A DNA stretch of 64,000 nt, taken from positions 33,191-97,190 of the IMG/VR virus record IMGVR_UViG_3300033571_003610; one strand, given 5' to 3'. The translations under genes and the position numbers were made by a program. Each line of letters begins with the position of its first letter. The stretch's first letter is position 1. This DNA comes from a virus. Positions 40,750-62,919 of the stretch are shown here, in pieces. The notes below the pieces were generated by a model. The model was not told where the DNA came from and made no database searches. It saw only the letters and a list, made by a program, of their open reading frames with translations.

Positions 40750-41118
40750 TCAAGAAGTTATTTCAGGCGGCTTTTGCTTCTTAGTAGAACTCATCATGTT
40801 AGAGCTCTTTGGGTGATGTTCCCAGTGTTCGCTGTGTAGTTCACTGGCAATATTTGGTTTATGTGCTACTAGCCATTTTTTGATTACGGGGATGCAATCT
40901 GCGTGTGGATCTTTTTCCTTATTGTAAAAGTCCAAGAGTTTTTGATGTAAGTCAGGATAAGTTATGCCAACTTGACTAAGCTGTTTAATACTGGAATTAG
41001 CATCCTTGCCCACTGGCAAAGTACCAAATAGTACTAAATGTCCTAGGCCAATAATATCGATTCTAGCACGTTCGATATCCATGGCTGTTTGTTCTTGTAT
41101 AAATTCGTGAGCTCTCAT
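40750..41118 (-). CDS. Unknown protein with MRxxEF-type N-terminus
   Basis: A 122-residue protein beginning MRAHEFIQEQ, a capsid-targeting-like start shared with ten other late genes. The rest is helical, ending in a His/Lys/Ser-rich tail (HSEHWEHHPKSSNMM). A TAAATA element five bases before the ATG implies late, possibly leaderless, expression. No enzyme motif is seen. Confidence 0.72.
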   Translation of the reverse strand: MRAHEFIQEQTAMDIERARIDIIGLGHLVLFGTLPVGKDANSSIKQLSQVGITYPDLHQKLLDFYNKEKDPHADCIPVIKKWLVAHKPNIASELHSEHWEHHPKSSNMMSSTKKQKPPEITS

Positions 41119-41122
41119 AGTA

Positions 41123-41881
41123 TTATTTAACCAATTTGATCATTAAACCAGCAAAGTCAAATTCCCACCATTTTTCTTTGGTTGTATAGCTGATAGGATT
41201 ATCATGATGGTTAGCATGCCAGCCTTCACCAAAGAATAAAATAGCTGTAATGGGATTATTGTAAGCATGATGTTTGTGGTTATCTCGGTTTTTGTAGCCG
41301 AACCAGTGATTAATAGTGTTTACGCTACCGCCAATTTCCCATAATAATGCCATGGGTGCAAGGTAAGCACAGACAAATAGAGTTGGACTGATTATCAACC
41401 AAGTTACTGCTATTGCTATATGTAGCTTAAAATAGTATCTATTTAGATTAGTTTGAAACTTGTCTTTGAGCATGTCAATAATATGCTCGCCGCCTGCTTG
41501 GCCAAACATACCTAGAAACTGTACACGGGCTAGTCCTAAGTGCTCGGGTCCATGTGGGTCTCGAGCTGTGTCAACAAACTTATGATGCGCCCTATGTACC
41601 GCAGTCCATACCATGGGACTACCGATTCCCGCATAAGCACCAAGCAGACTACCTATTTTTCTATATCTACTGCTAGCAGGCCAGCTGTTATGCGCTAACA
41701 GTCTGTGATAAGTCATTACAAGACCAAAACAACCGCTGGCTACGAAAACAAATAAACTAACTAACCACCACCATGCTTCTCCATAAAATATTTGATACAA
41801 AAGGCCAAGATGTGCGGCAATTTGTATATAAAGAACTTTCCAGCTAGTTGTTGTATATTTCTTTAAAGAAACAAATTGCAT
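41123..41881 (-). CDS. Acyl-CoA/acyl-lipid fatty acid desaturase
   Basis: A 252-residue membrane-bound diiron desaturase. The three His boxes are present: HRLLAH, HRAHH and HANHH, with an additional NHWFGY histidine region before the last. Hydrophobic segments (about residues 20-60 and 155-185) anchor it in the membrane. Family members introduce cis double bonds into fatty acyl chains, usually at delta-9. In a phage this may adjust host membrane fluidity. The start overlaps the upstream gene by 19 bases. Confidence 0.92.
   Translation of the reverse strand: MQFVSLKKYTTTSWKVLYIQIAAHLGLLYQIFYGEAWWWLVSLFVFVASGCFGLVMTYHRLLAHNSWPASSRYRKIGSLLGAYAGIGSPMVWTAVHRAHHKFVDTARDPHGPEHLGLARVQFLGMFGQAGGEHIIDMLKDKFQTNLNRYYFKLHIAIAVTWLIISPTLFVCAYLAPMALLWEIGGSVNTINHWFGYKNRDNHKHHAYNNPITAILFFGEGWHANHHDNPISYTTKEKWWEFDFAGLMIKLVK
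41124..41129 (-). promoter_or_regulatory. Late promoter element, leaderless spacing
   Basis: TAAATA (41129-41124) lies five bases before the ATG at 41118 and overlaps the end of the desaturase gene. Confidence 0.45.
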
Positions 41882-42489
41882 AAAATAATCTTTCTTGTAG
41901 TTTCAACTAAAGGCACACAGTGCCAAGTAATTTCAGTATTAAGCCAAAACGTGCCGGTCCACTTTTTATTTTGTCCCTGATGAATTATTTTTTCAGGAAA
42001 TTCATGTTCTACTTGTTCGGGTACCCAACGCATAATTCTCTCATGAGAAAAATGTGTTTGCGTATTGTTATCTTGTACATTGATTACACCCGATAACAAT
42101 ACAAATCTATTATCTAAATGCCAGCCTTGATTGAACCCAGGCTGATCGATTACTCTACTAAATGCTATTTTTGTTCTACTAGCATAACGTTTAGTAAACC
42201 AAATGTCGAAGTTAGGACTATCGAACATAGGGTACCGTAACGGATCTAGAGATACTAATTGTTTAGTTATTAACCTTAGCGGCTCATAGAGCTCTTTACT
42301 AAATTTACTAAACTCGTCGTTGGTATCATCACGTGGAAATATTGTAAATCGTTGTGGCTCTACATCTAACGACCCATAGTCAACTCTGCCCGCTGGTGCC
42401 TCAAACATACGATCAACATCAAATCTTTCGAATTCTGGAAACTCAACATCAATAATAGCAGGAGAGTCGATTATGTTGGTAACATTCAT
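41863..42489 (-). CDS. 2OG-Fe(II) oxygenase-like protein
   Basis: A 208-residue protein. WHLDNRFVLLSGVINVQDN provides an H-x-D pair, and WHCVPLVETTRKIILCNLFL a distal His followed by Arg, the spacing expected for the iron and 2-oxoglutarate ligands of the cupin-fold dioxygenases. The call is moderate because similarity is limited to these segments. The ATG lies five bases after the -10 box, so the mRNA is probably leaderless. Overlaps the desaturase gene. Confidence 0.6.
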   Translation of the reverse strand: MNVTNIIDSPAIIDVEFPEFERFDVDRMFEAPAGRVDYGSLDVEPQRFTIFPRDDTNDEFSKFSKELYEPLRLITKQLVSLDPLRYPMFDSPNFDIWFTKRYASRTKIAFSRVIDQPGFNQGWHLDNRFVLLSGVINVQDNNTQTHFSHERIMRWVPEQVEHEFPEKIIHQGQNKKWTGTFWLNTEITWHCVPLVETTRKIILCNLFL

Positions 42490-42494
42490 ATTTT

Positions 42495-42523
42495 ATTGTA
42501 CAAGAGTCAGTGTCTAAAGTCAA
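42495..42523 (-). promoter_or_regulatory. Sigma70-type promoter, leaderless type
   Basis: TTGACT (42523-42518), 17-base spacer, TACAAT (42500-42495), then five bases to the ATG at 42489. Confidence 0.75.
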
Positions 42524-42628
42524 AGATGCTGGTTACTTTATCCAGCGTACACTAACGGGGTACAGTCCAATTGTCCGGACGCCTAATACCGTTGACGACT
42601 AACGGCCCTAAGGTGGGGCTGGTTGCTC
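42524..42628. other. Gene-free stretch rich in hairpins
   Basis: No reading frame is supported here. At least three short hairpins occur in about 110 bases: GCTGG with CCAGC (42528-42546), CCGTT with AACGG (42589-42605) and GTCC with GGAC (42565-42580), and a fourth, GCTC with GAGC (42625-42635), reaches into the stop codon of the neighbouring gene. It could be a small structured RNA. It does not fold as a tRNA by eye. Confidence 0.4.
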
Positions 42629-42922
42629 TTAGAGCGAATTCTTATATATTGTATTTAATCTGGCCGTAATCCAAAGACCTGGACTACCGTGAACGCTTTT
42701 AGTTATACTAGGCATTTTGGAATGATAAAAATCATATAGCTTGTCTTGCAACTCATCTGTTACTTGAGAACTATTATAGTCTAATTGATTACTAGCTAGT
42801 TGTTTTATAATGTCTAGTTCTTGTTCTGTAAATTGTTTACTGAGTAACTGAGCTTCGTTAGTAGGTATATGATCGTGCGGCTTCCGAGCCGGCCGATACC
42901 GTTGTTTTTTTAAATTCTGCAT
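42629..42922 (-). CDS. Unknown basic protein
   Basis: A 97-residue protein with a basic N-terminus (MQNLKKQRYRPARKPHDH) and a helical middle. A strong terminator precedes its leader, so it probably has a separate promoter not clearly visible. No recognised family. Confidence 0.68.
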   Translation of the reverse strand: MQNLKKQRYRPARKPHDHIPTNEAQLLSKQFTEQELDIIKQLASNQLDYNSSQVTDELQDKLYDFYHSKMPSITKSVHGSPGLWITARLNTIYKNSL

Positions 42923-42928
42923 ATCGAT

Positions 42929-42955
42929 AAAATGAAAAGGGCTACTTAGTAGCCC
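42929..42955 (-). terminator. Rho-independent terminator after the Dps gene
   Basis: A perfect seven-base-pair GC-rich stem (GGGCTAC with GTAGCCC, loop of 3) followed on the minus strand by TTTTCATTTT. It begins 12 bases after the Dps stop. Confidence 0.9.
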
Positions 42956-42966
42956 GGGGAAACTGA

Positions 42967-43407: not shown

Positions 43408-43408
43408 G

Positions 43409-43579
43409 TTATACTCCGCCGCCTACTAGCTTGCCGTTAAACGGATGCTTAGTACCCCATTGGGCAACAGGCATTTTCGTGGCTTTGTCGGTGGCTTTGA
43501 CTTGGTCTGAAAACACTTTGTCTGTAGTGTAATCGGTACCAAGTTTGCTTTTTGATTCTACTAGCTCGTGTAATCTCAT
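43409..43579 (-). CDS. Small protein with capsid-targeting-like N-terminus (56 aa)
   Basis: A 56-codon frame beginning MRLHELVESKSKLG and ending with a Gly-rich stretch (GKLVGGGV). It starts in an ATGA overlap with the upstream gene and stops one base before the Dps ATG, so it fills the gap exactly. The tagged N-terminus supports a real gene. The segment MPVAQWGTKHPFNGKLVGG may be the mature peptide. Confidence 0.75.
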   Translation of the reverse strand: MRLHELVESKSKLGTDYTTDKVFSDQVKATDKATKMPVAQWGTKHPFNGKLVGGGV

Positions 43580-45990: not shown

Positions 45991-47100
45991 TTAAGCTAAT
46001 CTAGCTTCAGCAACTTGCTTAACAGCCTGAATAGCTTTATTAACATCGGTTTTAGGTAATGTAACTTCGTATTCTTTGCCGTTGAATTCAAAGGTATCTT
46101 TACCAGCGGCGGCAGCTCTGATATGTGCAAAAGCCGCATCTTCTTCTTTACCGCCTAGCTTTCTACTGGCCCAATCCCAAATGTCATCTGCGGCTTTCAT
46201 GCCTAATTTAGCGCCTTGATAACCGGTGTAACCTCCTATGATAGGAGCAAAAATACCACCCAACATACTGCCTATAATAACACCACCAGTACCACTTAGT
46301 GCGCCCATGCCTAAACCAGCTGCCATCTTAACTGGGAACGGCGCGGCTTCGTCGACACCATTGTTTAGTAGTTTTTTTAGACGATGCAAAGGATAAACTA
46401 TTTCTTTGGTTTCTTGTGGATACTTTGCTATAGCTTTGTCGGCAAGTTCTATAGCATCTTCTATGTGAGAACTACCATTGTCAATGGCCCATCTTAGAAA
46501 ACGACGAATGTCGAGTTCAAGACCAGAGTGTTGCAGTTCTCGTTCGATGTGTTTTAAAGGCATACCTGAATTTATAATATCTTCTTCTGTTGATTCGCCC
46601 ACTGTACGACTCTTACGTTCTTCTTCCTCTTCTCTTCTACGGCTATACTCGTATTCTTGTTTGTCAAACTCTCTGTCTATTTCACGTTGTTTAGAAGCAG
46701 TGCCATCTGAATTGTGGGCGCCTTTGGAGTAATCTCCGTAACCTGGGGGAGGTTTAAGGCGATATTTGTTAGTTTCTCCTAATCGACTTGAATCACCGTG
46801 TTCTTCAAGCATATCAGCTACCTGCATGACCCATCCAGATACATCGCTAGTTCCAATTTCATCTACATCTCCCACAAAATCAGCCACAGAGTCAATAGCG
46901 TCCATAACCTGTACAGGGCCATATTTTTGTAGTAATTCTGGGTGGCGAGTTAGGATGCGACGTGAAATAGCATTAGATACTGCTTCTCTGCTGTCGCTAT
47001 CTTCTTTTACTTTTTTCACTCTACGTTGCATAGAGCCGATTGGTGCGCTAACGGCAGCAAAAGCACCGGATGTGTTTTCAACTAATTCTTGTAATCTCAT
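45991..47100 (-). CDS. Late protein with tag N-terminus and glycine-zipper segment
   Basis: A 369-residue protein beginning MRLQELVENTSG. A helical region (RILTRHPELLQKYGPVQVMD, then DFVGDVDEIGTSDVSGW) follows. Residues about 265-320 form a Gly/Ala-rich hydrophobic stretch (GLGMGALSGTGG, GGIFAPIIGGYTGYQGAKLG) resembling glycine zippers that insert into membranes. The C-terminus has a small beta segment. A membrane-active injected protein is possible but unproved. Overlaps its upstream neighbour by four bases. Confidence 0.72.
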   Translation of the reverse strand: MRLQELVENTSGAFAAVSAPIGSMQRRVKKVKEDSDSREAVSNAISRRILTRHPELLQKYGPVQVMDAIDSVADFVGDVDEIGTSDVSGWVMQVADMLEEHGDSSRLGETNKYRLKPPPGYGDYSKGAHNSDGTASKQREIDREFDKQEYEYSRRREEEEERKSRTVGESTEEDIINSGMPLKHIERELQHSGLELDIRRFLRWAIDNGSSHIEDAIELADKAIAKYPQETKEIVYPLHRLKKLLNNGVDEAAPFPVKMAAGLGMGALSGTGGVIIGSMLGGIFAPIIGGYTGYQGAKLGMKAADDIWDWASRKLGGKEEDAAFAHIRAAAAGKDTFEFNGKEYEVTLPKTDVNKAIQAVKQVAEARLA

Positions 47101-47444
47101 CTTGATTGTAATATTCTTATGGTGTCACGGAGATTGGCGATCAGTTCCCTATCCGTTTCTTCTCTGGATTCTAAATCGTCAACTTCTTTGTCAAGTTGAT
47201 CAATTTCTTTGTCCATTTTATTCAGCTCATGCTCTTGCTCTGCATCATTGCGCTCTACATCGTCTATGTCGCTTTGGTCTTTTTCTAAGCCAAGCTCCAA
47301 GTATTTTAGTACAGCTTCTAAATCGTCATGACCTAAATTGGGGTACATACTACGAGCTCTACGGGCTAGTCGTGCGATTTCGACATCGCCCGCGCCAGTA
47401 CGTCCAAGTGTATTAATACCAGATTTAAGCTCAGTTAATCTCAT
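47097..47444 (-). CDS. Tagged coiled-coil late protein
   Basis: A 115-residue protein beginning MRLTELKSG. Residues 20-50 form a helical domain (DVEIARLARRARSMYP), and residues 55-115 a long acidic coiled coil (heptads in LNKMDKEIDQLDKEVDDLES). A full TATAAATA late promoter lies five bases before the ATG. Function is unknown; a scaffold-like role is possible. Confidence 0.75.
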   Translation of the reverse strand: MRLTELKSGINTLGRTGAGDVEIARLARRARSMYPNLGHDDLEAVLKYLELGLEKDQSDIDDVERNDAEQEHELNKMDKEIDQLDKEVDDLESREETDRELIANLRDTIRILQSR

Positions 47445-47457: not shown

Positions 47458-47542
47458 CTGGACTATATGGGTTTAAGGGTCTATCCCACTCGCCTTCCTG
47501 TGGAGGATACACAGGATATTCATTATTTCGTTCACATAACAT
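47453..47542 (-). CDS. Possible 29-residue peptide
   Basis: A frame starting MLCERNNEYPVYPPQEGEWD and ending at a TAA inside the late promoter. It begins in the last codons of the upstream gene, which suggests coupling, and has a non-random Pro/Tyr-rich composition. No clear ribosome binding site. Confidence 0.35.
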   Translation of the reverse strand: MLCERNNEYPVYPPQEGEWDRPLNPYSPV

Positions 47543-48371
47543 ATATTTTTCCCACAGAATTACCCAAAACGTCATTAAACAACAGTTCCATATCCCTAGC
47601 TAAAACTTCTGTTGTTTGACGTCTTTCTTGTTCGTCTCTTAGTTCTTCTGAACGTATAGTTAACTGACGACTAGGGTTGCCCCATGCTTGCCGTCCATAG
47701 CCGATACTAACTGGCAACGGATTTAGTGTTACGTTGCCAGTGCCCAAGTACTGTGCAAATAGTTCATATAAAAACTCGTAGGGTCTTTTAATATCACCTT
47801 CCCTACTACTGCGTTGTGTGCCAATAGCATTGAATAAAGCATTGTATTCTTTACTGAGTTCAAACTTTAATTGTCCACCTGGGTTACCTCTGTTGCCATA
47901 AAAATCCTGAAGAATTTGATTGATAGTTCTAAAGAAGTGACTTTCTGCTTCTTGCCAAGCAGGATCTCCACTGCTACCCCTACCACCAGCTACAATAGCA
48001 TGGCCGAATCTATGTGCCATAACCCATGGAGTCAGCATACGTTTAGCATCACCTTTGTTGCCCACAAATACTACTGTAATTGCATCTTCGTGACCTTTGA
48101 CAATTTCTTTACCTTCATCACCAAATATGATTTCCACATTACTTGGAGTCATCGGTCCGTATTCACTGTAGCGCCCGGTACCCGATACATTACTAAAAAA
48201 CAATCTAAAATCAAAAGGTGTCTTTTCAAAAAACTTTATGGCCTTAACTTTGTTAACAGGATGAGGCACTAGTTTTTTGTCAGGTCCCCTAAACGGGCCC
48301 GGCTTATTAAAGTCACCAAAAGGTTCATAATCTACTAGAGGTGCTTCATTTAATAATTCTTGTAGTCTCAT
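47532..48371 (-). CDS. Tagged zincin-like protein with altered HExxH
   Basis: A 279-residue protein beginning MRLQELLNEAPL. TPWVMAHRFGHAIV looks like a zinc-metallopeptidase helix, but the catalytic Glu of HExxH is Arg (HRFGH). A downstream YELFAQYLGTGNV could provide the third ligand. With the Glu lost, protease activity is doubtful. The protein may be a non-catalytic binder or use different chemistry. Two late genes upstream carry the same tag. Confidence 0.65.
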   Translation of the reverse strand: MRLQELLNEAPLVDYEPFGDFNKPGPFRGPDKKLVPHPVNKVKAIKFFEKTPFDFRLFFSNVSGTGRYSEYGPMTPSNVEIIFGDEGKEIVKGHEDAITVVFVGNKGDAKRMLTPWVMAHRFGHAIVAGGRGSSGDPAWQEAESHFFRTINQILQDFYGNRGNPGGQLKFELSKEYNALFNAIGTQRSSREGDIKRPYEFLYELFAQYLGTGNVTLNPLPVSIGYGRQAWGNPSRQLTIRSEELRDEQERRQTTEVLARDMELLFNDVLGNSVGKIYVM

Positions 48372-48372: not shown

Positions 48373-49857
48373 TCAATGGAATAGCAAATAGCTACCTAAA
48401 ACATCATCTCTATTGGCTGCGTTGTCACCGTCGCCAGGCATTACAATAACATTCCATTTGTTTTTATCACCTTCGGGAGTACGCATCATTTCATCATATG
48501 TAATGATACTGCTGGTATCTAATGCATACTTTTTAGCCATGCGCTGTTTAAATTCTTCTAACTCTGCACCGGACTTAAATTGCATACGGTCTTTGGCATC
48601 TTTAATTAGCTTGTTACCATCACGTGCAATCAAGTCCCAAAACATTTCTTGCGGCACAACCTTGCTGTGCTTGACTCTTTGAAAGTCTACTTTCTTTTCC
48701 TGACTGGTATGTGCGCCTCCGCTAAAGTTCATACGGAAATTCTTAGGACGACTTGCAGTAGCTACGTCAGCTATCTTGGTATAAGCATAAAACTCTACGT
48801 CAGGATTATCATTAGCAATTTGATAAGCAACATCTAGATATTCAGGACTAAAAAAGTCTCCGGCATCGTGCCAACGAACTACCATCTTAACATTCTTTTT
48901 ACCCAGCTTGGCTTTAGATTTTTCTATTTCTGTGTTAAGCATACTTGCAAAGCCTTCAGGATCGTTTAATAAGAAGTTTAACAATCTAGTACTGCTCATA
49001 CTAGAAGCTTTAAACATAACATAGCCGCCCTGCATTGCATAACAGTAAGTTTTACAAGCGCCGGCGCCCGGGCAAGTATCTACTACTACAAACTCACCTG
49101 TTTCTTCATTGACTGCCAGTCCTTTAAGTGCTGGTAAGCCAATGTCATAGATTGCTTGACTGCCGGTTTCGCTGTGTTGCATTTTAGCGTTTTGGCCTAA
49201 TATACTTTTTGGTCTAGCAGTGATCATGGCCTTAAGTGCATCCAAGTCGTACTTGTGTCCTTTTTCGTCCTTGATTTCAACGTTACTGCCATGCACGTAA
49301 GGATAGTCGAACTTGTCTCTTTTAGTTTTGGTCTTAGTTTTAACGCGGCCTAAAAAATCCTGCATTTCATCGTCGTCCATTGCCCTATACTTGGATCCTA
49401 GACCAAATGGAGCTTCTGACAGACTTTCACTAGTCATGCTGGATTTGTATTCTTCCCATGGTTCTAAGAAATCTTCTTTCCATTTTCCTTCTTTAACAGA
49501 CCAAGCAAAATCAGTAAGCCTGCCTAGGCCGCCGCCTATGTCACCAATAAGGTTATCGAGCTTTAGCATTTCTTTTGTGTTAGACTTTAAGTGATATGCA
49601 ATAAAGTTGTAAAGCCAATCAGTATCATTATTTTCAACAGCAGACTCGTAACGTCTCCAATGCATAGGATTTGTCACAACTGCTTGGCCAAGTCTACCTA
49701 GTTTTTTAATTAAGACATCTGCTCGATCCAGCCATTGACTGTCTCCTGCGGATTCTTCTACGTCCTGTTGTTCATGATCAACAAATTGATCCAAGCTCAT
49801 AACCGTAAGGCCATTTAATTTTTTCTGTTTTGATTCAAAAAGCTCACTGGCTCTCAT
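48373..49857 (-). CDS. Tagged protein with gp88-like domain
   Basis: A 494-residue protein beginning MRASELFESKQ. Residues 200-460 match the phage gp88-like family: TCPGAGACKTYCYAMQGGY (C-x5-C-x3-C), VRWHDAGDFFSPEYLDVAYQ, FYAYTKIAD, then a C-terminal domain. Residues 1-190 are a separate helical region. The family has no established activity; the Cys triad suggests a metal or iron-sulfur site. Overlaps the upstream gene by four bases (ATGA). Confidence 0.72.
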   Translation of the reverse strand: MRASELFESKQKKLNGLTVMSLDQFVDHEQQDVEESAGDSQWLDRADVLIKKLGRLGQAVVTNPMHWRRYESAVENNDTDWLYNFIAYHLKSNTKEMLKLDNLIGDIGGGLGRLTDFAWSVKEGKWKEDFLEPWEEYKSSMTSESLSEAPFGLGSKYRAMDDDEMQDFLGRVKTKTKTKRDKFDYPYVHGSNVEIKDEKGHKYDLDALKAMITARPKSILGQNAKMQHSETGSQAIYDIGLPALKGLAVNEETGEFVVVDTCPGAGACKTYCYAMQGGYVMFKASSMSSTRLLNFLLNDPEGFASMLNTEIEKSKAKLGKKNVKMVVRWHDAGDFFSPEYLDVAYQIANDNPDVEFYAYTKIADVATASRPKNFRMNFSGGAHTSQEKKVDFQRVKHSKVVPQEMFWDLIARDGNKLIKDAKDRMQFKSGAELEEFKQRMAKKYALDTSSIITYDEMMRTPEGDKNKWNVIVMPGDGDNAANRDDVLGSYLLFH

Positions 49858-51080
49858 ATTAGTTCCCTTACGTTATGTTCAATGGCCGCATCTAGCCAGT
49901 TTAGTATTTCACCGTTCATGCCTATTGCACAGTCCATCTGTAGGTCTAGCTCATCGATGCTTTCTAATTCGTCCATGATTAACTGATAAAAATCTTTTTC
50001 CTGCGTCCAGTCTGCTATTGCATCACTGACTATATCATATCTTGCTTCAAACTCTTGCCATGTATCAATATCACGAATGGTTCTAGTAATTTTATTAACT
50101 AAATCATAACCTTCGTCATTAAAGGCTTCCCATGCTAGTTCTTTGAATTCGTCTGGATCAACTAACTCTTTTAGAATTTTTGCGTCGTGAAGTAATTGTA
50201 CCAGCATATTTTTAATAACAGTACCAGTGTCTTCATTTACAAATGCTAATAAACGATTTCTTATTTCTTCTGGGAATTTTCTAAGTAATTTTTCATATTC
50301 TTCTGTGTCAAGTATCAAGGCTTTGATATTAAGATTATGTGCTTGATCGTAGAATATTTGTTTTAATTGCGGGAATCTTTTTACAAGATCTATCATTGGT
50401 ACAGGATGATCTTTTTCATTCATAAACTGCCTAGTTTCGAAATGCAGTTGATATTTCTCATCTTTATATGCAGGCTTTTGAGGTATAAGAATAAACAATT
50501 CGCCCTTGCCGGCATAAGTGTCAAACATGTTATTAGTATTAGCCGCAGTACACCAACGTGTACCACGTCCGTAATAGCAAGCGGCTTCTTTGTTAATAGG
50601 TTGAATTACTCTTAGAACAGAATCTTTATAAATTTCGTGGGATTTGCCTTTGGCTTCGGGGCTTTCGTCTACATCGGGATATTCGTCAACTACACTTAAA
50701 AAATCGCCAATATTAGTATAGCGCATAAAATCATTACGAGGACTAGGAATAACTTTTTTGCGTTTAAGTTTATCAAATTTAATAAGATAATCTGATAATG
50801 TACTGCCCATGTCTTCGAACTTTGTTTGTCCTTGTCCGTATATTTTTGCTAGGGCCTGTGCGTATTCTTTATTTTGTGTGGGATCCGACTTTTCGATTTG
50901 GTCCATGACTAAATCTAATAATTGGTCGTCGGATACTTGATCTGGATCTCTGAATTGTGCGGGTATACTACGATCTCTCCTAGCAATAGGGACGATTTTC
51001 CTGCCATAGTTTTGGGCGGTGATATCTCGATTGTACTCGAGTAATGTGATATTTTCAGCTAGAAGTTCTTGTAATCGCAT
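49854..51080 (-). CDS. Tagged protein with GTRWCTAA motif
   Basis: A 408-residue protein beginning MRLQELLAEN. The middle has YYGRGTRWCTAANTNN followed by GELFILIP and YQLHFETRQF, a pattern seen in phage proteins of unknown function. The C-terminal 170 residues are acidic and helical (hinge-like repeats with Asp/Glu). It has its own late promoter region (51081-51126) and heads a run of four tagged genes. No activity can be assigned. Confidence 0.7.
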   Translation of the reverse strand: MRLQELLAENITLLEYNRDITAQNYGRKIVPIARRDRSIPAQFRDPDQVSDDQLLDLVMDQIEKSDPTQNKEYAQALAKIYGQGQTKFEDMGSTLSDYLIKFDKLKRKKVIPSPRNDFMRYTNIGDFLSVVDEYPDVDESPEAKGKSHEIYKDSVLRVIQPINKEAACYYGRGTRWCTAANTNNMFDTYAGKGELFILIPQKPAYKDEKYQLHFETRQFMNEKDHPVPMIDLVKRFPQLKQIFYDQAHNLNIKALILDTEEYEKLLRKFPEEIRNRLLAFVNEDTGTVIKNMLVQLLHDAKILKELVDPDEFKELAWEAFNDEGYDLVNKITRTIRDIDTWQEFEARYDIVSDAIADWTQEKDFYQLIMDELESIDELDLQMDCAIGMNGEILNWLDAAIEHNVRELI

Positions 51081-55264: not shown

Positions 55265-55891
55265 TCACTTACGTATAGTTTTGACTTTTTTAACTTTCTT
55301 TGCCGGCTCTTTGTGTATTACCTTTTTTATTTTTTGAGTAATAGGATCTCGTTGATAAACAAAATAATGTTCGCCCTGTTTAACTGGAATACCCAGTGTT
55401 ACTTCACGGCCGTGATAACGTGCTTCGTCTACACTTTGCTTCATGTACTTTTTGCGTAGTTCCCAGTCTTCAGGAGTAGCTTCTCTGATTAAATGAAGAT
55501 ACTGGTCCACAGGAACTTCTTTTATTTCTACTGGTTTAATTTCTTTAACTCCAGGAACGGAATGAAATTCTCTACTGTTACCGCCGGGCACAAACTGTGG
55601 CTTGCCATCAGGACCGTTCATAGGTACTTTGTGCAAATAAACATTTTCGCCTTTTCTAATTTTTCCACTGAATAAAACCATTTGAGGGTCATTAGGAAAC
55701 ATACCAGTGTCAGAACCAGCTGTTGTAAGTCCCATGGCAATTGCAACTTTTGGGTCGCTGGTAGCATAGATAGCGTTTTGGTTACTACCTGGTGCGCCAC
55801 CAGTGTCTAGTGATTGTCTTGGCTCTAGAACAGGAATTTTGTTCCTGGATCCGTGCCAAAGATATTGCTGTGAAATTTCTTTTAAACGCAT
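55265..55891 (-). CDS. Tagged ADP-ribosyltransferase-like protein
   Basis: A 208-residue protein beginning MRLKEISQQ. YLWHGSRNKIPVLEP, then GAPGSNQNAIYATSDPKVA, resembles the beginning of ART/PARP-like folds (H-G-S and Y-A-T segments), though the family is not certain. The C-terminal module (ARYHGREVTLGIPV, VYQRDPITQKIKKV) is also found in the protein at 58629-59615. T4 carries a packaged ADP-ribosyltransferase (Alt) with a similar internal-protein N-terminus. A late element lies four bases before the ATG. Confidence 0.55.
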   Translation of the reverse strand: MRLKEISQQYLWHGSRNKIPVLEPRQSLDTGGAPGSNQNAIYATSDPKVAIAMGLTTAGSDTGMFPNDPQMVLFSGKIRKGENVYLHKVPMNGPDGKPQFVPGGNSREFHSVPGVKEIKPVEIKEVPVDQYLHLIREATPEDWELRKKYMKQSVDEARYHGREVTLGIPVKQGEHYFVYQRDPITQKIKKVIHKEPAKKVKKVKTIRK

Positions 55892-55901: not shown

Positions 55902-56531
55902 ACTTAATGTCCATGTAACTAATTTAAAACGCTCGGGCTCTAGGTTTAGATAATCTGTTTTAAACTTAGTTTGTCCGTAAAAATCTAAATGCAACCACTG
56001 GTCTCGCATTTGCCAAAACTTATCAGCTAAGTCCTGCCAATCAACATTAGTAATAACTTTTTCTATTTGATATTGTTTTTCAACCACTGAATCGTAATTA
56101 AAATCATCCCACTCGTAGTGAAATACTTCAAATGCCTTGTCAGCATCTGCATAGTCTATACTGATATCTATGCCCCACTTAGGTCTCATATGAACTAGTT
56201 TATATACAGGTGTAAACTGCTCAGCAAACTGATGTATTTGTTTTAGAGCCGTACCGCTAAAGCCTTTACGCTCAAATAAACAAGCATGATTTAAATGTAC
56301 ACCTTTTATAGAACTGCAACTAAACCAATCTTTGAATATTGCTTTACGCCATCTAACATTACGCACACTGGCTCCATTGGCTTCTGCATAACGCTCCTCT
56401 AAGGGAGTAAGGTCGTAGCCGTTTTGATCAAAGTTAGTCATGCAGTCATGTGACACTATTATCTTGTCTATAGGTCTTGACCATGTAGCCTGCGGATTTA
56501 ATTGTTCATGAGTTTTTTCTAACGTAACCAT
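55899..56531 (-). CDS. Unknown protein
   Basis: A 210-residue protein with many His, Trp and Phe residues and a mixed alpha/beta pattern (KLVHMRPKWGIDISIDYADA). No recognised family and no tag. Its stop overlaps the late element of the ART-like gene. Confidence 0.68.
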   Translation of the reverse strand: MVTLEKTHEQLNPQATWSRPIDKIIVSHDCMTNFDQNGYDLTPLEERYAEANGASVRNVRWRKAIFKDWFSCSSIKGVHLNHACLFERKGFSGTALKQIHQFAEQFTPVYKLVHMRPKWGIDISIDYADADKAFEVFHYEWDDFNYDSVVEKQYQIEKVITNVDWQDLADKFWQMRDQWLHLDFYGQTKFKTDYLNLEPERFKLVTWTLS

Positions 56532-56539: not shown

Positions 56540-58225
56540 TTACTTTTTACCCGACTTCATATTAGCACACCAGTGATACATTTTACTTTTCTCGCCGCTG
56601 GCATTTTTTGCTTTAGCACGTAAGTCAGTGACTGAACCATCACAACTAGCACCTGCACGTTTTACACGACCGGGCCGGCTTTTGCCTTTGACTTTGCCGT
56701 CAGCAAAGTTTTCCGCCACACCTTGCTGACCAATCTGAACCAACCATTCTAATTCGTCATCTATGTCCCTAACATCATAGAATTTGACATTAGGAATCTT
56801 TTTCATAGCAAACCATTTGTTAGCTACTTTGACCATCCATGCACGATGTTGTGGATCGTTTGAGTTAGGCTCGTAGTCCCCAGTCATGTTAACCCATAAT
56901 GGATGTGGATTTCCTTCTTCATCAAATCCCAACAGCTCACGCCACTCGTCTTGAAGTTGTATTGGTACATAGTCGTCGAGTTCAGTATCGCTCATCCACT
57001 CCTGACCAATATCAATACCTTCCGCCACACCTTTTGCCTTAAATTTGCTCAACGGTATCTTATTGTTTTCTTCATCGGTGAGCCAAGCATCAATTAAGCC
57101 ATGCACATAAACTACATGCATGATATACCATTCACCATTGGCCAGTTTAACATCGTATCTAAAACTGCGTCCTTCTTGACTGCGAAATTTTCTTCCCACA
57201 AGTCGAACACGGCCGTCCATGGCCTTGTTCAACTGTTCAAGACTTAAATTGTCCAATGATTTTACATCACCGAACATGTTTTTTAGACTATACTTGGTAT
57301 TCAAATTGGCTTCAACGCCTTCATTTTTCTTTCGACCCTGGCAATGAGCACGTTGGCTAAATCCTTTGGGATTACTACAGTTAATAGACTTCTTGTACTT
57401 TTGACTCCACTTTTCTTCTAAATTAGATTCTAACAAAGTATTGTCGGCAAACCACGGATCGATAATAACTAGATCGCCGTTTTTACGTTGCATGACATTT
57501 TCAGTATGCAAGTCCCAACCTAGTTTATTGATACGTCCAGTTTTAAATAACATGGACATTACAGAATATAATTCACTCCATGTTTGTTCTTGATCAGCTG
57601 TGAGATTTTTTACTTTGTTAGCTATTTTATCAGCTTGCCTAGGCCAATGCGATTCTTCCCATTTATCAGGGTTAGATAATTCCGCTTTAACCGCAGGCCA
57701 TGCAATGTCATTGCTTACATAATCACTTAGATACCAAACCATTGCTTCGGAAAACGTATTTTTCCTAATAGGAAAAAGTCGTTCCATGTCAATCTGAATG
57801 TATTCTTTATCTAGTACATCGATAGTATTATATTCGTTGATTACTGGCAAACATTTAAGATCTTGATGTTGCAGGCAAAATTCGTAGAATTTTTTAAACA
57901 CTTCTACAGCACGACTACCTGGATCTTCGGGCATAAGAATTTTAATTACATAACCTGCTTCTTTGGCAAACACAGTACTGTCTGCACCGCTGCCAATCTT
58001 TTTGTAACCTAGTTTTCGAAACTCTTGTGATATGTTACGAGCATAAGCAGTACCCATTTCTGCTTCGCCCATGGCCTGCGATAATGCACTTTGACGTTTG
58101 ACAACTGGCAACTCGACTGCGGGTTCTAAACTGCCGCCGCCCTCCATTATTGCCAATTCCATTTCTGTGAATTGTGTTTTGGTTTGTTTAGGTGCAGGAC
58201 CTTTAATGAATTCAGTAAATCGCAT
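56540..58225 (-). CDS. Tagged protein-kinase-like protein
   Basis: A 561-residue protein beginning MRFTEFIKGPAP. Residues 75-260 follow the protein kinase pattern: a glycine-rich loop IGSGADSTVF, a VAIK-like Lys95 in YVIKI, catalytic WDLHTENVM (Asp238, Asn243) and IIDPW (Asp256, in place of DFG). Cys-rich modules follow: SINCSNPKGFSQRAHCQGR and, at the end, GRVKRAGASCDGSVTDL then YHWCANM. GVAE occurs twice between modules. It could phosphorylate host proteins after injection; substrates are unknown. Confidence 0.72.
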   Translation of the reverse strand: MRFTEFIKGPAPKQTKTQFTEMELAIMEGGGSLEPAVELPVVKRQSALSQAMGEAEMGTAYARNISQEFRKLGYKKIGSGADSTVFAKEAGYVIKILMPEDPGSRAVEVFKKFYEFCLQHQDLKCLPVINEYNTIDVLDKEYIQIDMERLFPIRKNTFSEAMVWYLSDYVSNDIAWPAVKAELSNPDKWEESHWPRQADKIANKVKNLTADQEQTWSELYSVMSMLFKTGRINKLGWDLHTENVMQRKNGDLVIIDPWFADNTLLESNLEEKWSQKYKKSINCSNPKGFSQRAHCQGRKKNEGVEANLNTKYSLKNMFGDVKSLDNLSLEQLNKAMDGRVRLVGRKFRSQEGRSFRYDVKLANGEWYIMHVVYVHGLIDAWLTDEENNKIPLSKFKAKGVAEGIDIGQEWMSDTELDDYVPIQLQDEWRELLGFDEEGNPHPLWVNMTGDYEPNSNDPQHRAWMVKVANKWFAMKKIPNVKFYDVRDIDDELEWLVQIGQQGVAENFADGKVKGKSRPGRVKRAGASCDGSVTDLRAKAKNASGEKSKMYHWCANMKSGKK

Positions 58226-58628: not shown

Positions 58629-59615
58629 TTACCACTTTCTGCATGACCAGTAACGTGCCTTTGTACGTGGTCCTGGGTTACTGCAATTGTGTCTTGCACG
58701 GAAACTCTTACGGCGTTTAGGGTTGGACTTTTTAATACGCATGTTAGGATCGCCAAAGTTTACTTTTTTCACATTACCTGTGCTTGGATCACGTACATAA
58801 ACCTTAAACTTCTTAACATCGCCTTGCATTGGCTTGCCTAAGGGAACATTGCGTCCTTGATATTCAGCTTCCGCCACACCTTGCTCACCGTTAATAGCTT
58901 GTAACAAAGCACGAGCAACAACGCGGTCTTTTTCTTTTTCGTCTTCGGACAACTGAGCATAGTTAATTTTCATTAACTTGGCTCTTTGCTCTAACTTAGC
59001 ATCTAGTTTACCTGCTTGGCGTAGTTTTTCTGTATCATCAAACTGATTGGGATCTTGTACAAACTTTTGTGCAGTAACATTCCAACCTTTGTGGATAGCA
59101 TCAGAGATTTTTTCAATATCTGTTTCTCCAGCATCAATTAGTTTTTTAGCATAAGTGGCACTCATAACATTGGCTTGCCAGCCAAATGTGTTACCAGGAC
59201 TACTGCGACCGTACCCGTAGGCTTTGTCTAGTGCTTCATCGCTGATTTTAGCTAGACTGTTAACATCTGCTGATTCTTTAACACAGTTATTAACTCTAAC
59301 ACCACCTTTGATTTTGGTGCCCTGTTTTTTATAACCGTCCCAGCATTTAGGATCTAGTCTTTGCTTGACTTCTTCAATGCTTTCACTACTGCGTGTTTGC
59401 TTAGGACCCTGACGTTCCTTCCACTTTTTATCTGTACTGCACCAGTATTTTCCATAAGACTCAACTAGTAAGTTGGCACCGGATATACTATCAGTTTCAG
59501 CAACAATTTCGTCACCGTTAACGGCAGTGATAACCGCTTCTACTATTTCTTCGCCTAGTTCAATTTCAATGATGTCGCCTATTGCTGGCTGACTAATAAA
59601 TTCTTCAAATCTCAT
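58629..59615 (-). CDS. Tagged RyR-domain protein with Cys-rich C-terminal module
   Basis: A 328-residue protein beginning MRFEEFISQP. A small beta domain (IGDIIEIELGEEIVEAVI) and LDPKCWDGYKKQGTKIKGG module follow. Residues about 150-260 resemble the RyR domain (DAIHKGWNVTAQKF, INYAQLSEDEKEKDRVVAR). After GVAEA come AEYQGRNVPLGKP and the Arg/Cys-rich end HNCSNPGPRTKARYWSCRKW. The repeated modules suggest several separable parts. The ATG follows a hairpin terminator. Confidence 0.72.
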   Translation of the reverse strand: MRFEEFISQPAIGDIIEIELGEEIVEAVITAVNGDEIVAETDSISGANLLVESYGKYWCSTDKKWKERQGPKQTRSSESIEEVKQRLDPKCWDGYKKQGTKIKGGVRVNNCVKESADVNSLAKISDEALDKAYGYGRSSPGNTFGWQANVMSATYAKKLIDAGETDIEKISDAIHKGWNVTAQKFVQDPNQFDDTEKLRQAGKLDAKLEQRAKLMKINYAQLSEDEKEKDRVVARALLQAINGEQGVAEAEYQGRNVPLGKPMQGDVKKFKVYVRDPSTGNVKKVNFGDPNMRIKKSNPKRRKSFRARHNCSNPGPRTKARYWSCRKW

Positions 59616-59617
59616 GG

Positions 59618-59660: not shown

Positions 59661-59678
59661 TGTGAATAGTATTCTAAA

Positions 59679-59955: not shown

Positions 59956-60005
59956 TACTACAGTACATTCTGTAGTATAACATTATTTATGTTGCAGAGC
60001 AACAT
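59956..60005 (-). promoter_or_regulatory. Late promoter flanked by two perfect hairpins
   Basis: On the minus strand ATGTTGC-TCT-GCAACAT (60005-59989) runs straight into CATAAATA (59991-59984), and TACTACAG with CTGTAGTA (59977-59956 region, eight base pairs) follows where transcription should start. The 138-base gap contains no gene. Confidence 0.6.
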
Positions 60006-60035
60006 TTTCCACATCTTTTTTCTAGTGAATGAATA

Positions 60036-61040
60036 CTAATTTAATTGAAAACTGGCCAAATTCTTACCCTTGCTTTCGCACATAATATCAAATTGATCGT
60101 TAAAGGTAAGAGCCCATTGGTTAACTGCGGTATTCCAATAAAAGTCACTGTGTGCTCTAAGTTTGGCTTTTTTGTAGCCCTGTGCTAGCAAACTGTGCAT
60201 GTCGGGCAGAGTATCAACGCAATGCCCCACTAAAATATCTTCGCGACTAACAGAGTAATGGATAACGGGCCGAACGCCGCGCCAGCTATCAATTATACGT
60301 AATACTCTATCGTCGGAGGGCTGAATGTACTCTCCTGTACGGATCCAGTGATGGTGTATATCGAGTACAAGGGCACAATGGTCAACGAGCTTGATGCTGT
60401 CTTCGACGCCCCACGACATTTCGTCGTTTTCGATGGTAAGTGTGTTACGGGCTTCTGGAGTGAGTCGTGGAATAATGTCGATGATACCTTGGGGACCGCG
60501 TCGACCCGCGATGTGGACATTGATTTTAAAATCCTGAAATTCTTTACCGTATCCCATGTAACGGGCCATGTCCACATGATATTCAAACTCCTCTACACTA
60601 CGATCAACTACGTCAGCTGATTCACTAGCCAGTACGCAATATTGGCCGGGATGAAAACTAAGACGTACACCCAGTTGCCTAGCCAGCTGGCCAATGATAG
60701 AAAAATGTTGCTCAAGATAGCTAACAGTCCCAGGCTGATGCCAAAAATAGCGCCAGCTAGGCTCGGTATAAGCAGGCAACAAATCACTGCTAAGGCGGAC
60801 CATACGAAATTTCGGTTCAAGATTGCCAACTCTTTCTACCAGCAACTTAGTAGCTTCTAAGTTTTGAACCATCAGGTCCCAGAGCTTTTGTTCGGCTACA
60901 GATCTAGTTTGTCTATTTAACCAACTGATAGTAGTAGTGCCAGTATTGTATTTCTTGCAGTCATCTTTGGGTTTGATACCGTCAGTCTGATGCGGAAAGT
61001 CAATCCACTTGCAAGCAAAGCCAATTCGTTTATGTGCCAT
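60036..61040 (-). CDS. uvdE: UV damage endonuclease UvdE
   Basis: A 334-residue TIM-barrel endonuclease that nicks 5' to UV photoproducts. Family segments are RMVRLSSDLLPAY, RLSFHPGQYCVLAS, VEEFEYHVDMARYMG, NTLTIENDEMSWGVED and VLDIHHHW with metal-binding Glu, Asp and His residues. I choose the ATG at 61040, which gives MAHKRIGFACKW as in UvdE proteins and an 11-base overlap with the MaoC-like gene; a longer frame begins with TTG. It would repair phage DNA without the host. Confidence 0.92.
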   Translation of the reverse strand: MAHKRIGFACKWIDFPHQTDGIKPKDDCKKYNTGTTTISWLNRQTRSVAEQKLWDLMVQNLEATKLLVERVGNLEPKFRMVRLSSDLLPAYTEPSWRYFWHQPGTVSYLEQHFSIIGQLARQLGVRLSFHPGQYCVLASESADVVDRSVEEFEYHVDMARYMGYGKEFQDFKINVHIAGRRGPQGIIDIIPRLTPEARNTLTIENDEMSWGVEDSIKLVDHCALVLDIHHHWIRTGEYIQPSDDRVLRIIDSWRGVRPVIHYSVSREDILVGHCVDTLPDMHSLLAQGYKKAKLRAHSDFYWNTAVNQWALTFNDQFDIMCESKGKNLASFQLN

Positions 61041-61404
61041 TTCTTGTAACAACTTTCCATGATCCCCAGCAATGCCGAGTATTTTCACTTTTAACAATCC
61101 AGTCGATAGTGACGATTGCTGACTTAATATTATCGCAAGTAAATTCTATTGTCAAAGGAGTATCAACTCTAACAGGTTTACTAAACTTCAAATCCATTTT
61201 TGCACTGAGCGCATACTTACAGTCTTTGAAATATTCCTGTTCGGTAAACTTACTCCATACTAGCCATTGAGGCAGTTTGCTGATAATGAATCCGCCTTGC
61301 ACAATACCGTGTACTACATGAATTTCTTGGTCGTCGCCACTAATACGTGCAAAGTCTTGCACTTGTTCTAGTGTAAACGAATCCGTGGCGACAAATGTAG
61401 TCAT
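61030..61404 (-). CDS. MaoC-like hotdog-fold protein, leaderless mRNA
   Basis: A 124-residue protein. FARISGDDQEIHVVHGIVQGGF resembles the MaoC/(R)-hydratase motif (SGDxNPIH followed by HG), with the catalytic Asp-His pair preserved in outline. Family members hydrate enoyl-CoA or related thioesters. The ATG lies six bases after the -10 box of a strong promoter, so no ribosome binding site is available. With the desaturase it could modify acyl chains. Confidence 0.6.
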   Translation of the reverse strand: MTTFVATDSFTLEQVQDFARISGDDQEIHVVHGIVQGGFIISKLPQWLVWSKFTEQEYFKDCKYALSAKMDLKFSKPVRVDTPLTIEFTCDNIKSAIVTIDWIVKSENTRHCWGSWKVVTRNGT

Positions 61405-61410
61405 GCTACT

Positions 61411-61439
61411 ATTATACATTAAATGAAAATATTAGTCAA
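61411..61439 (-). promoter_or_regulatory. Sigma70-type promoter, leaderless type
   Basis: TTGACT (61439-61434), 17-base spacer, TATAAT (61416-61411), then six bases to the ATG at 61404. Confidence 0.8.
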
Positions 61440-61710
61440 GAACGGTAATTTGGGTAACATTCATAATTTTGAAGCTACGCCATTCTGACTTGTCAGTACA
61501 CCAAACGCTGTAGACATTTGGATTTTTGGCTTTGGTTCCTTTGCTTTCTACGATGGGAAAGCTACCTTCTTTGAGAGTACAGGGCATTACCCTAACCGAA
61601 CCGTCTACTTTGGTAAAAGTAACTTCGCAATGGTGCTGATGTAGCAAATCGCCGATAGTTTCTGTGCGTTGCTCTAGTGTGTCGTCTGTGGTAAATTCTA
61701 CTGTAATCAT
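61432..61710 (-). CDS. SH3-barrel-like protein (DUF2693 type)
   Basis: A 92-residue protein. VDGSVRVMPCTLKEGSFP, then NPNVYSVWCTDKSEWRSFKI matches the DUF2693 pattern of small phage SH3-like proteins (RxMPCTL and W-R-S-F). Function is unknown. The ATG overlaps the upstream stop by four bases. Confidence 0.7.
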   Translation of the reverse strand: MITVEFTTDDTLEQRTETIGDLLHQHHCEVTFTKVDGSVRVMPCTLKEGSFPIVESKGTKAKNPNVYSVWCTDKSEWRSFKIMNVTQITVLD

Positions 61711-62069
61711 TCTGTGTGGTCCTTGGCTAGTTGGAAAATTAAATCTAGTTCTTTCTTTGCTTGCTCTACGTTAGCTAGTGCATGGGCCACGCTGGCATGT
61801 TTTGCGGCCATAGCCTTCATTTCGGCTTCTTCGGCCATTTTACATTGTACCCACGCAATAGCAGCCTGTACGTGAGGTGCTACATCAATAGTAGCATTGC
61901 CACCACCAAACTGTTGCCAACTGACACCATCATAGACTTCTAAATAGTTCATGTTGGTGTTATATCTAAGCATACCGGCACTTTGGGCACCTGGACTGAT
62001 ATATGGAGTATTGCCTTGATAGCAACTTACATTTAGTAATGAGGAGTTAGAAGTGATGTTTTTAATCAT
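61707..62069 (-). CDS. Probable virion protein with tail-fibre-like segment
   Basis: A 120-residue protein. The segment GMLRYNTNMNYLEVYDGVSW is typical of neck or tail-fibre proteins of marine T4-like phages (the same type of repeat as in the gene at 62921). The C-terminal half is a helix. The ATG lies five bases after the -10 box of a promoter, so the mRNA may be leaderless. Confidence 0.68.
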   Translation of the reverse strand: MIKNITSNSSLLNVSCYQGNTPYISPGAQSAGMLRYNTNMNYLEVYDGVSWQQFGGGNATIDVAPHVQAAIAWVQCKMAEEAEMKAMAAKHASVAHALANVEQAKKELDLIFQLAKDHTE

Positions 62070-62074
62070 GTACT

Positions 62075-62103
62075 AGTATAACTAAATTTAATTTAGTTGT
62101 CAA
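62075..62103 (-). promoter_or_regulatory. Sigma70-type promoter, leaderless type
   Basis: TTGACA (62103-62098), 17-base spacer, TATACT (62080-62075), then five bases to the ATG at 62069. Confidence 0.75.
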
Positions 62104-62387
62104 ACACTAGTACTGGCTTCGATGCTGAAATCAAAAGGAAACTTATCCAATAGACGTTTGGAAATTATGTCACCATCCAATTTACTAAGATCATCAACTA
62201 AAGGAATATCATAGCAATGCTCTTGGTCTCTGGCATGATATATCATAACTGCGCCATCAGATTGCTGATCAATTAATGCTCCAACAGGACTATCAAATAC
62301 TATTCTAAAAAAATCTTTAATAGTATCTTTGTCTAATTCTTGGTCGCTGACTAACCTAACAAAATGATCAAATTCTTGAGCTTGCAT
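62100..62387 (-). CDS. Unknown protein
   Basis: A 95-residue acidic protein (MQAQEFDHFVRLVSDQELDK at its start) of alpha/beta character. It lies between the tagged ParB-like gene and a fibre-type gene. No recognised family. Confidence 0.7.
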   Translation of the reverse strand: MQAQEFDHFVRLVSDQELDKDTIKDFFRIVFDSPVGALIDQQSDGAVMIYHARDQEHCYDIPLVDDLSKLDGDIISKRLLDKFPFDFSIEASTSV

Positions 62388-62388
62388 A

Positions 62389-62919
62389 TTAATCCTGATT
62401 CATAACAATAGTCGTTCCGGGTTCAGGTTCTTTTAATCCAATTTTACCTGGGTATAACATGCCCGACTCCACTCGTTCGCCGCCATCAAAGTATTTTAAT
62501 TCTACTGGCAAAGACTTCCAGCCCAATTTAGCCGCGGCCATAATTCTATGATTACCTTCTAAAACTCTAGCATCACCGTTCCATGCAACTCCAATAAAAG
62601 GTGCATATTCTTTCCCGTCATGCATTGGCAGTTTGCCTGTTTCGTCCATTATTTTCATAATAGCTTCGAGATCTGCTCTGCGAACATTTTCCTGTTCTTT
62701 TCTAGCACCAGGAATTCTTTTAAGTATCTCTATAGGTATTTCTACGCGGCTAGGCTGTCTAACATAACCGGTTGTACTGCCCATATATGGGCTGTTGTAA
62801 CTGTCATAGCCTTTTTTTCTAGCATACTCTACTTTACCATCTAACCAATCTTCGTTGGGTACATCGGTAACTAATAGTGCTTCGGAAACTGCTTGTTCAA
62901 ATAATTCTCTTAATCTCAT
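62389..62919 (-). CDS. Tagged ParB-like protein
   Basis: A 176-residue protein beginning MRLRELFEQAVSEALL. Residues 60-150 follow the ParB/Srx pattern: VEIPIEILKRIPG, LPMHDGKEYAPFIGVAWNG, then VLEGNHRIMAAAKLGWKSLP (the E-G-N-H-R box). ParB-fold domains with GNHR can bind nucleotides or act as nucleases. With the tag it could be packaged and injected. The TAA of the upstream gene lies one base before its ATG. Confidence 0.75.
   Translation of the reverse strand: MRLRELFEQAVSEALLVTDVPNEDWLDGKVEYARKKGYDSYNSPYMGSTTGYVRQPSRVEIPIEILKRIPGARKEQENVRRADLEAIMKIMDETGKLPMHDGKEYAPFIGVAWNGDARVLEGNHRIMAAAKLGWKSLPVELKYFDGGERVESGMLYPGKIGLKEPEPGTTIVMNQD

Follow-up and report, generated by a model that had tools for sequence, protein, structure and literature searches.

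The window, a stretch of 64,000 nucleotides from the IMG/VR virus record IMGVR_UViG_3300033571_003610, contains between positions 40,750 and 62,919 a set of 11 genes for which a sequence-only reading had claimed a common protein start of the form M-R-(L/F/A)-x-E-(L/F/I). Translation of the window recovered this start in 11/11 genes, with ATG as the start codon in each. We designate the genes by their low ends; all 11 lie on the minus strand, and hence their N-terminal tags are found at the high ends. A slash within a tag or junction denotes the putative point of cleavage.

The first of these genes (40750..41118) codes for a 122 aa protein of unknown function without a match in Pfam or PHROG, whose tag, MRAHEFIQE/Q at 41089-41118, is the closest of all to the T4 QEFIAE/. 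A small gene (43409..43579; 56 aa; start MRLHELVESK) bears the tag MRLHELVE/S at 43550-43579, and the C-terminal HPFxGxLVG of its product is also seen in a tagged protein of locus L046. The 369 aa product of 45991..47100 (start MRLQELVENT; tag MRLQELVE/N at 47071-47100) has homologues of its residues 41-98 inside larger proteins of relatives and displays a candidate internal cleavage site, GVDE/A, at 46339-46359. The gene 47097..47444 (start MRLTELKSGI; tag MRLTELKSG at 47415-47444) specifies a coiled-coil-like protein of 115 aa, while 47532..48371 (279 aa; start MRLQELLNEA; tag MRLQELLNE/A at 48342-48371) specifies one with a conserved HR[FI]GHA, the domain of which is internal in L070 and L041, where it follows LNE/A and IDE/M, respectively. 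The GP88-family protein of 494 aa (48373..49857; start MRASELFESK; tag MRASELFE/S at 49828-49857) has homologues with other flavors of the tag, for instance MKTLKQHLNE/A and MDIRNILNIITE/N. The 408 aa product of 49854..51080 (start MRLQELLAEN; tag MRLQELLAE/N at 51051-51080) matches phrog_28193 (2e-10), a family of unknown function.

The 208 aa protein encoded at 55265..55891 (start MRLKEISQQY; tag MRLKEISQQ at 55862-55891) has a candidate site VDE/A (55409-55432) ahead of a YxGRxVxLG domain. In the three-part 561 aa product of 56540..58225 (start MRFTEFIKGP; tag MRFTEFIKG at 58196-58225), a protein-kinase-like part (about residues 54-262) is combined in one polypeptide with a WSQKYKKSINC and a FADGKVKG domain, with candidate internal sites at LEE/K (57401-57421), GVAE/G (57011-57031) and GVAE/N (56699-56722). 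The 328 aa protein from 58629..59615 (start MRFEEFISQP; tag MRFEEFISQ at 59586-59615; phrog_7595, 5e-11) couples a CWDGYKKQGTK Cys domain to a C-terminal YQGRNVPLGKP domain, with a candidate site GVAE/A at 58860-58880. The ParB-like protein of 176 aa (62389..62919; start MRLRELFEQA; tag MRLRELFE/Q at 62890-62919; phrog_8071, 6.7e-5) matches over residues 11-176 an internal segment of a 1291 aa protein, likewise multidomain, in L006, L012 and L030.

The identities first proposed for this cargo were upheld only in part. Profiles support the kinase (phrog_15752, 1e-12), GP88 (Pfam, 2.9e-32; 112.8 bits against a curated cut-off of 24.4) and ParB-like assignments. The Pfam match to Kinase-PolyVal (0.052) falls under the cut-off, and no match was found to the other domains of the published polyvalent set. 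The RyR and ART assignments, including that of ART for 55265, are unsupported by any Pfam or PHROG profile. A catalytic zincin is likewise unsupported for 47532: HExxH is absent and HR[FI]GH stands in its place in all five homologues; from its sequence, the protein might at best be termed zincin-like. Its AlphaFold model was unusable (pLDDT 35), and a sequence profile found no solved relative. For GP88, neither the model (pLDDT 71; no PDB match below E 0.001) nor a profile revealed a solved relative, and the viral matches are mostly other GP88 proteins.

A near-identical 183.9-kb contig (G001), which differs from the window by 2 mismatches across the 22-kb segment, has the same 11 tagged genes. 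They account for all strict matches among its 229 called ORFs, where 0.02-0.12 would be expected, and all 11 fall within a span of 29 consecutive genes (permutation p < 5e-6). The strict motif is absent from all other genes of the 97-kb contig to which the window belongs. Across 109 loci, it opens 135 of 2350 ORFs as against 3 matches after 10,697 internal Met codons; most of these loci were fetched through homology to tagged proteins, and the internal-Met control is thus the comparison that counts. The further claim that an acid often follows the motif stands for the seven tags with a second, processing-type Glu, but not for 47097, 55265, 56540 and 58629, where it is missing. These four proteins may be targeted without normal processing. 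The second Glu is similarly lacking in 29 of 90 non-redundant tags.

The consensus of the tags in relatives, MRAxEFIxE, aligns with the N-termini of T4 ipII/ipIII (MKTYQEFIAE/A) and gp24 (MAKINELLRE/S). Mutagenesis of the T4 capsid targeting sequence (CTS) has shown that residues 4 and 7 are needed for targeting and residues 8 and 10 for processing, the two functions being separable (PMC9026906); these correspond to tag residues 3 and 6, and 7 and 9, respectively, and the consensus agrees with the CTS at the positions found to be important. When a DNA scan fixed just M-R-A-x-E-F-I, the unspecified residue 9 was Glu in 45 of the 51 hits. A Phi-x-E (Phi being hydrophobic) ends at residues 8-12 in 61/90 non-redundant tags, versus 36/249 control windows from the same proteins.

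Both a gp21-type protease (Peptidase_S77) and gp23 are encoded in G001; the window's own 97-kb contig stops short of covering the head operon. Of 14 further large contigs examined, 8 have Peptidase_S77 and six do not, the latter being possibly fragments or divergent; L143 and L172, in which the pattern hit falls within a longer frame, lack it. What follows the Glu of the tag resembles, in several genomes, what follows the Glu at the gp23 cleavage site, the latter inferred by alignment rather than measured: YLKE/NASAGSTSSGNIA in gp23 versus tagged MRAHEIME/NASAGATCAGSIA in G002, MIAE/QPTNAVGNGGYTSSGGQ versus MKTLKQFLKE/TPTNSVGNGGYTSAGGQ in S-SM2, and KLME/SATAGATSAGNVA versus MRAYEFIKE/NASSGGTSASSVA in G013. 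None of 5000 shuffles matched the junction score for the G002 and S-SM2 pairs. A Gp23-profile hit at G013:162160, considered as a tagged protein, proved to be a gp23 fragment.

Virion proteomics of cyanophages also bears on the tag. In S-CREM2, a T4-type tag pattern set beforehand is present in 6/28 MS-detected non-structural or hypothetical virion proteins, as opposed to 0/166 undetected ones (p = 5.5e-6). Four of the six are clear, while two (gp17 and gp156) are weak by eye, and the authors of that study could not exclude contamination behind MS detection. A Cys domain related to that of 58629 occurs in the MS-detected S-CREM2 gp160. In S-SCSM1, MS detected one protein out of the two with clear tags, too few to decide. 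An NMNAT/cytidyltransferase is tagged in S-SM2 (MKSFFQFLSE/A) and S-SCSM1 (MKSFLQFLKE/A), and MS places it among the virion proteins of S-SM1 and S-SCSM1. The T4 CTS alignment, the gp21-type protease and gp23, the likeness to the gp23 junction and the MS association in S-CREM2 all favor the capsid-targeting role earlier suggested for the tag. Hence, we consider it highly probable that the common start of these proteins represents a capsid targeting sequence of the T4 type, though core binding, cleavage and injection are inferred for this phage, for which there are no virion data.

Other explanations of the shared starts fare poorly. An element of the DNA or RNA itself, situated at the start codon and acting in translation or regulation, might be invoked in view of the invariant ATG, the AGA that mostly follows it and several A/T-rich upstream regions; nevertheless, synonymous codons vary within the tags (Arg as AGA, CGA or CGT; Leu as TTA, CTA or CTT; Glu as GAA or GAG), the conservation of residue 9 is at the amino acid level and the upstream sequence is not shared, leaving this explanation scarcely credible. 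The T4 late-promoter sequence TATAAATA lies directly upstream of just one tagged gene, beginning 13 nt before the start of the homologue of 47097 in G001; with only three occurrences on the plus strand of that contig, one of them near a tagged gene, a shared late promoter was discarded. Because codons vary, the tag is conserved at the protein level, and nucleotide-only conservation, which would have refuted the sequence-only reading, is excluded along with a DNA-level repeat. The same variation speaks against the recent spread of a single leader segment, by duplication or shuffling, without any targeting function. While such shuffling would suit the clearly mosaic nature of the tagged proteins and their common domains, the conserved and variable positions of the tag track those important in the T4 CTS, and the same domains bear different flavors (MR.., MKT.., MDIRNI..) in different phages; we regard it as very improbable. 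It is also conceivable, if improbable, that the tag docks proteins not to the prohead core but to another assembly partner, such as the tail, the baseplate, a chaperone or an infection-specific compartment. The tagged cluster is distant from the head operon and there are no docking data; yet the end of the tag resembles the gp23 junction and the T4 CTS, one looser tag in G001 sits between the portal and protease genes, and none of the 24 structural proteins that MS detected in S-CREM2, most of them from the tail and baseplate, is tagged.

Within the multidomain proteins, the junctions preceding three unrelated domains have Glu at P1 in 78/78 cases and a hydrophobic residue at P3 in 75/78. The recurrence of the same Phi-x-E junction before unrelated domains is the basis for reading these tagged proteins as polyproteins: by sequence, they look like substrates cut by the prohead protease, though no cleavage has been observed. 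Alternatively, Phi-x-E-N at the boundaries could be a part of each fold, conserved along with the domain, with the proteins remaining intact. Consistent with this, the broad motif Phi-x-E-[NAGSTKQ] is no denser in tagged proteins than elsewhere, and only GV[AED]E and the domain boundaries stand out. However, the junctions of the three domains and that of gp23 agree only at P3 and P1, with P2 and P4-P6 varying, and GV[AED]E occurs 4 times per 2984 aa of tagged proteins versus twice in the 53,902 aa that make up the remainder of G001. We judge the fold-based alternative unlikely but not negligible. Whether aquatic T4-like phages join a portable capsid-import tag to a standard Phi-x-E linker (often QGVAE/), so that any effector domain can be built into polyproteins that are loaded and then cut in the prohead by the capsid-maturation protease into separate injectable effectors, appears to us an evenly balanced question.

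Under the capsid-targeting interpretation, the first 6-7 residues of the tag would bind the protein to the core of the assembling prohead, and the gp21-type protease would mostly cut the tag off at Phi-x-E/ near residue 8-9, so that the trimmed protein would be loose inside the head and could leave it together with the DNA. The tag is modular, standing in front of kinases, GP88 and ParB-like proteins, nucleotidyltransferases, HAD phosphatases and also small Cys-rich domains, and the larger cargo would probably be matured by the same protease, because the Phi-x-E/ site recurs between domains. This suggests that a T4-like water phage and its relatives carry swappable host-manipulating proteins injected with the DNA, the injection being inferred. 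The tag provides a sequence rule for spotting virion-carried, early-delivered proteins among the uncharacterized ones of abundant aquatic phages, and a candidate signal by which the kinases and cytidyltransferases that recur in cyanophage virions could be loaded. Should the internal sites indeed be cleaved, the role of the prohead protease widens from tag trimming to freeing separate effectors from polyproteins.

The closest parallel is with the T4 CTS and internal proteins (IPI-III, Alt), which have a comparable short N-terminal peptide with an E-[FL]-[IL]-x-E/ core and cleavage-type Phi-x-E, gp21 and gp23 in the same genome and varied cargo behind one tag. T4, however, has a few small internal proteins, whereas here the tagged genes number 11, are clustered and include multidomain cargo with candidate sites of internal cleavage; the tag also differs at residues 2-4 (MRA/MRL against MKTY). 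The head propeptides of the giant phages SPN3US and phiKZ are similarly N-terminal, found on head and ejection proteins and associated with a gp21-related protease that cleaves after A/S/G-x-E, but are mostly about 80-160 aa long rather than one shared short tag (PMC5694885). In phage P1, an N-terminal signal of DarB suffices to bring a reporter into the capsid, but the Dar proteins have no consensus among them (PMC9024508). The kinases and cytidyltransferases found by MS in cyanophage virions are partly the same cargo types, several with a CTS-like start; the passages of these papers that were consulted describe no loading signal (PMC10665884, PMC9602691, PMC3037559). Finally, the polyvalent proteins (Iyer et al., 2017; PMC5512222) are likewise phage multidomain mixtures directed at the host, with kinase-like and ParB-like domains, and are predicted to be packaged and injected. 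Their processing has been ascribed to their own zincin peptidase domains, whereas in the present system this task likely falls to the prohead protease, and a loading tag has been identified.

The eleven genes on the minus strand of the window that a sequence-only reading had grouped by a shared N-terminal start all exist, and in translation each begins at an ATG and conforms to M-R-[LFA]-x-E-[LFI]; none of the remaining genes of the 97,190-base parent viral contig has the strict motif. The same 11 tagged genes are carried by a near-identical contig of 183,898 bases (G001), which differs from the window contig by 2 mismatches across a 22-kb segment. There, all 11 strict-motif starts lie within 29 consecutive genes, as against 0.02 to 0.12 starts expected by chance among 229 called ORFs. 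Across 109 loci the motif is found at 135 of 2350 ORF starts, but after only 3 of 10,697 internal Met codons; these loci were mostly obtained via homology to tagged proteins and the former value is not a general frequency. A DNA-level repeat might also generate shared starts, and codon variation had been proposed as the check on this: the tag codons vary freely, which rules out such a source.

The tags of relatives have the consensus MRAxEF[IV]xE. As an unbiased test of residue 9, 2.9 million viral contigs were scanned for DNA encoding only M-R-A-x-E-F-I; this residue, which lies outside the search pattern, is Glu in 45 of the 51 matches of scorable length, and the matches lacking it lie within longer frames, apart from one or two unclear cases. 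A hydrophobic-x-Glu (Phi-x-E) cleavage-type site ending at residues 8 to 12 is present in 61 of 90 non-redundant tags, compared with 36 of 249 control windows from the same proteins. In the T4 record, ipII and ipIII start with MKTYQEFIAE/A and gp24 with MAKINELLRE/S (slashes mark known or inferred cut positions). Mutagenesis of the T4 capsid targeting sequence (CTS) has been summarized as showing that residues 4 and 7 mainly govern targeting and 8 and 10 processing, the two being separable (PMC9026906); these positions correspond to tag residues 3, 6, 7 and 9. This separability would also account for the tags without the second Glu (4/11 in the window, 29/90 overall), which may retain targeting yet escape processing, or else be cleaved behind an [LF]-x-E that ends at residue 5, in the manner of T4 Alt, which is cut at ITE-6 (PMC5694885).

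G001 encodes both the prohead protease gp21 (Peptidase_S77) and the capsid protein gp23, with the head genes ordered as in T4: portal, small genes, gp21, gp22 and gp23. Its sole additional tag-like start, MKFLELREG, opens a gene for a 75-aa product, located between the portal and protease genes. Peptidase_S77 was found in 8 of 14 other large contigs, and is absent from the two among them whose pattern match sat inside a longer frame. The T4 late-promoter sequence TATAAATA has only three copies on the plus strand of G001 (183.9 kb), including those at 56270 and 168666; one copy precedes a tagged gene by 13 nt and another directly follows gp23. At L002:14812-15861, next to baseplate and tail genes, lies a protein of 349 aa that contains an extended (YGG)n repeat.

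The tag ends resemble the cleavage junction of gp23, whose mature starts were inferred via comparison with T4 gp23 (FLTE/A). In a 331-kb phage (G002), gp23 has YLKE/NASAGSTSSGNIA, to be compared with MRAHEIME/NASAGATCAGSIA in a tagged protein of 72 aa; in cyanophage S-SM2, gp23 has MIAE/QPTNAVGNGGYTSSGGQTVAGFD and SSM2_108 MKTLKQFLKE/TPTNSVGNGGYTSAGGQTVAGYD. Junction scores for these two pairs were never equalled by shuffled sequences in 5000 trials, and another large phage contig (G013) displays the same resemblance. So, if the inferred gp23 cut sites are right, the short tag would replace the gp23 propeptide ahead of a gp23-like arm. Separately, G013 has a gp23 fragment (IIGVQPMAGPVGQIFTLKTKYG) in a small frame of its own (G013:C1:162160-162252, L215), some 109 kb away from the actual gp23 gene. 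Sequence like the gp23 arm also occurs in the virion proteins S-SCSM1 gp97 (AVGAGGFTGSSAAEGPTAGYDPL; L208, record 93121-93306) and S-CREM2 gp160 (AAGATGFTGAAAPEGPVAGYDPL); the annotated start of the former is probably too short, the in-frame upstream sequence being MDKTDRVIQLIRE.

Three unrelated domains, FADGKVKG, WSxKYKxSINC and YxGRxVxLGKP, occur either directly behind the tag or within larger proteins. In distinct contexts preceding them, the residue before the potential cut (P1) is Glu in 78/78 cases and P3 is hydrophobic in 75/78, with P2 and P4 to P6 variable. Likewise, the ParB-like domain of 62389 starts at residue 11, just past the tag, and its counterpart in a 1291-aa protein is an internal segment. 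Tagged proteins contain 4 copies of GV[AED]E in 2984 aa, and the remaining G001 proteins 2 in 53,902 aa; for the wider Phi-x-E pattern the tagged proteins show no enrichment over the rest of G001. We infer, with no cleavage observed, that the same protease may cut larger cargo between domains.

Virion proteomics of cyanophages provides independent data. For S-CREM2, with 52 published virion proteins (PMC10665884), a T4-type tag pattern fixed before the genome was looked at matches 6 of the 28 non-structural or hypothetical proteins that were detected, none of the 24 structural proteins detected and none of the 166 undetected proteins (Fisher p = 5.5e-6). Four tags are clear (SAM hydrolase MKDFDSFLEE, gp13 MKDLHSFLTE, kinase MKRFDAFLTE and cytidylyltransferase MKNFSSFLTE/A), while gp17 and gp156 are weak matches; the detected gp136 (MQTFSMFFSE) and Cas9-like gp12 (RFASFMAE/A) look tagged by eye yet fall outside the pattern. 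Of the two clearly tagged proteins of S-SCSM1, the corresponding data place just one in the virion (NMNAT, MKSFLQFLKE/A). The cytidyltransferase T4-GC190, reported in the S-SM1 virion (PMC3037559), bears the tag MKSFFQFLSE/A in S-SM2. Since the tags of S-CREM2, S-SCSM1 and S-SM2 have the T4-like MK form, whereas those of the window begin with MR, these data support this class of signal without bearing directly on the 11 window proteins.

Other gene groups of the window were recognized by eye only. Radical-SAM-like Cys motifs mark a series of about seven neighbouring proteins (31544-40703, minus strand), beside desaturase-like (41123), 2OG-oxygenase-like (41863) and Dps-like (42967) genes. QueE-like, FolE-like and TGT/DpdA-like genes (16422-17315, 19595-20275 and 25096-26628, minus strand) suggest 7-deazaguanine DNA modification, if these assignments are correct.

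The capsid-targeting-like interpretation of the tag meets all the defining features of the T4 CTS and internal proteins that can be tested from sequence. We predict that the tag functions in the manner of the T4 CTS and internal-protein system; virion presence, trimming, core binding and injection are untested in this phage. The literature searched, which excluded most subscription journals, held no description of such tags in aquatic T4-like phages, and priority is not established. As for the cargo, profiles back the kinase-like region (56540), GP88 (48373) and the ParB-like domain (62389) but not the proposed ART and RyR, and the proposed zincin (47532) lacks HExxH. The 95 tagged proteins of relatives include acetyltransferases, chitinase/endolysin-type enzymes, nucleotidases, NUDIX, cytidylyltransferase-like and helix-turn-helix proteins. 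This mixture resembles the polyvalent proteins, for which packaging and injection have been predicted (PMC5512222).
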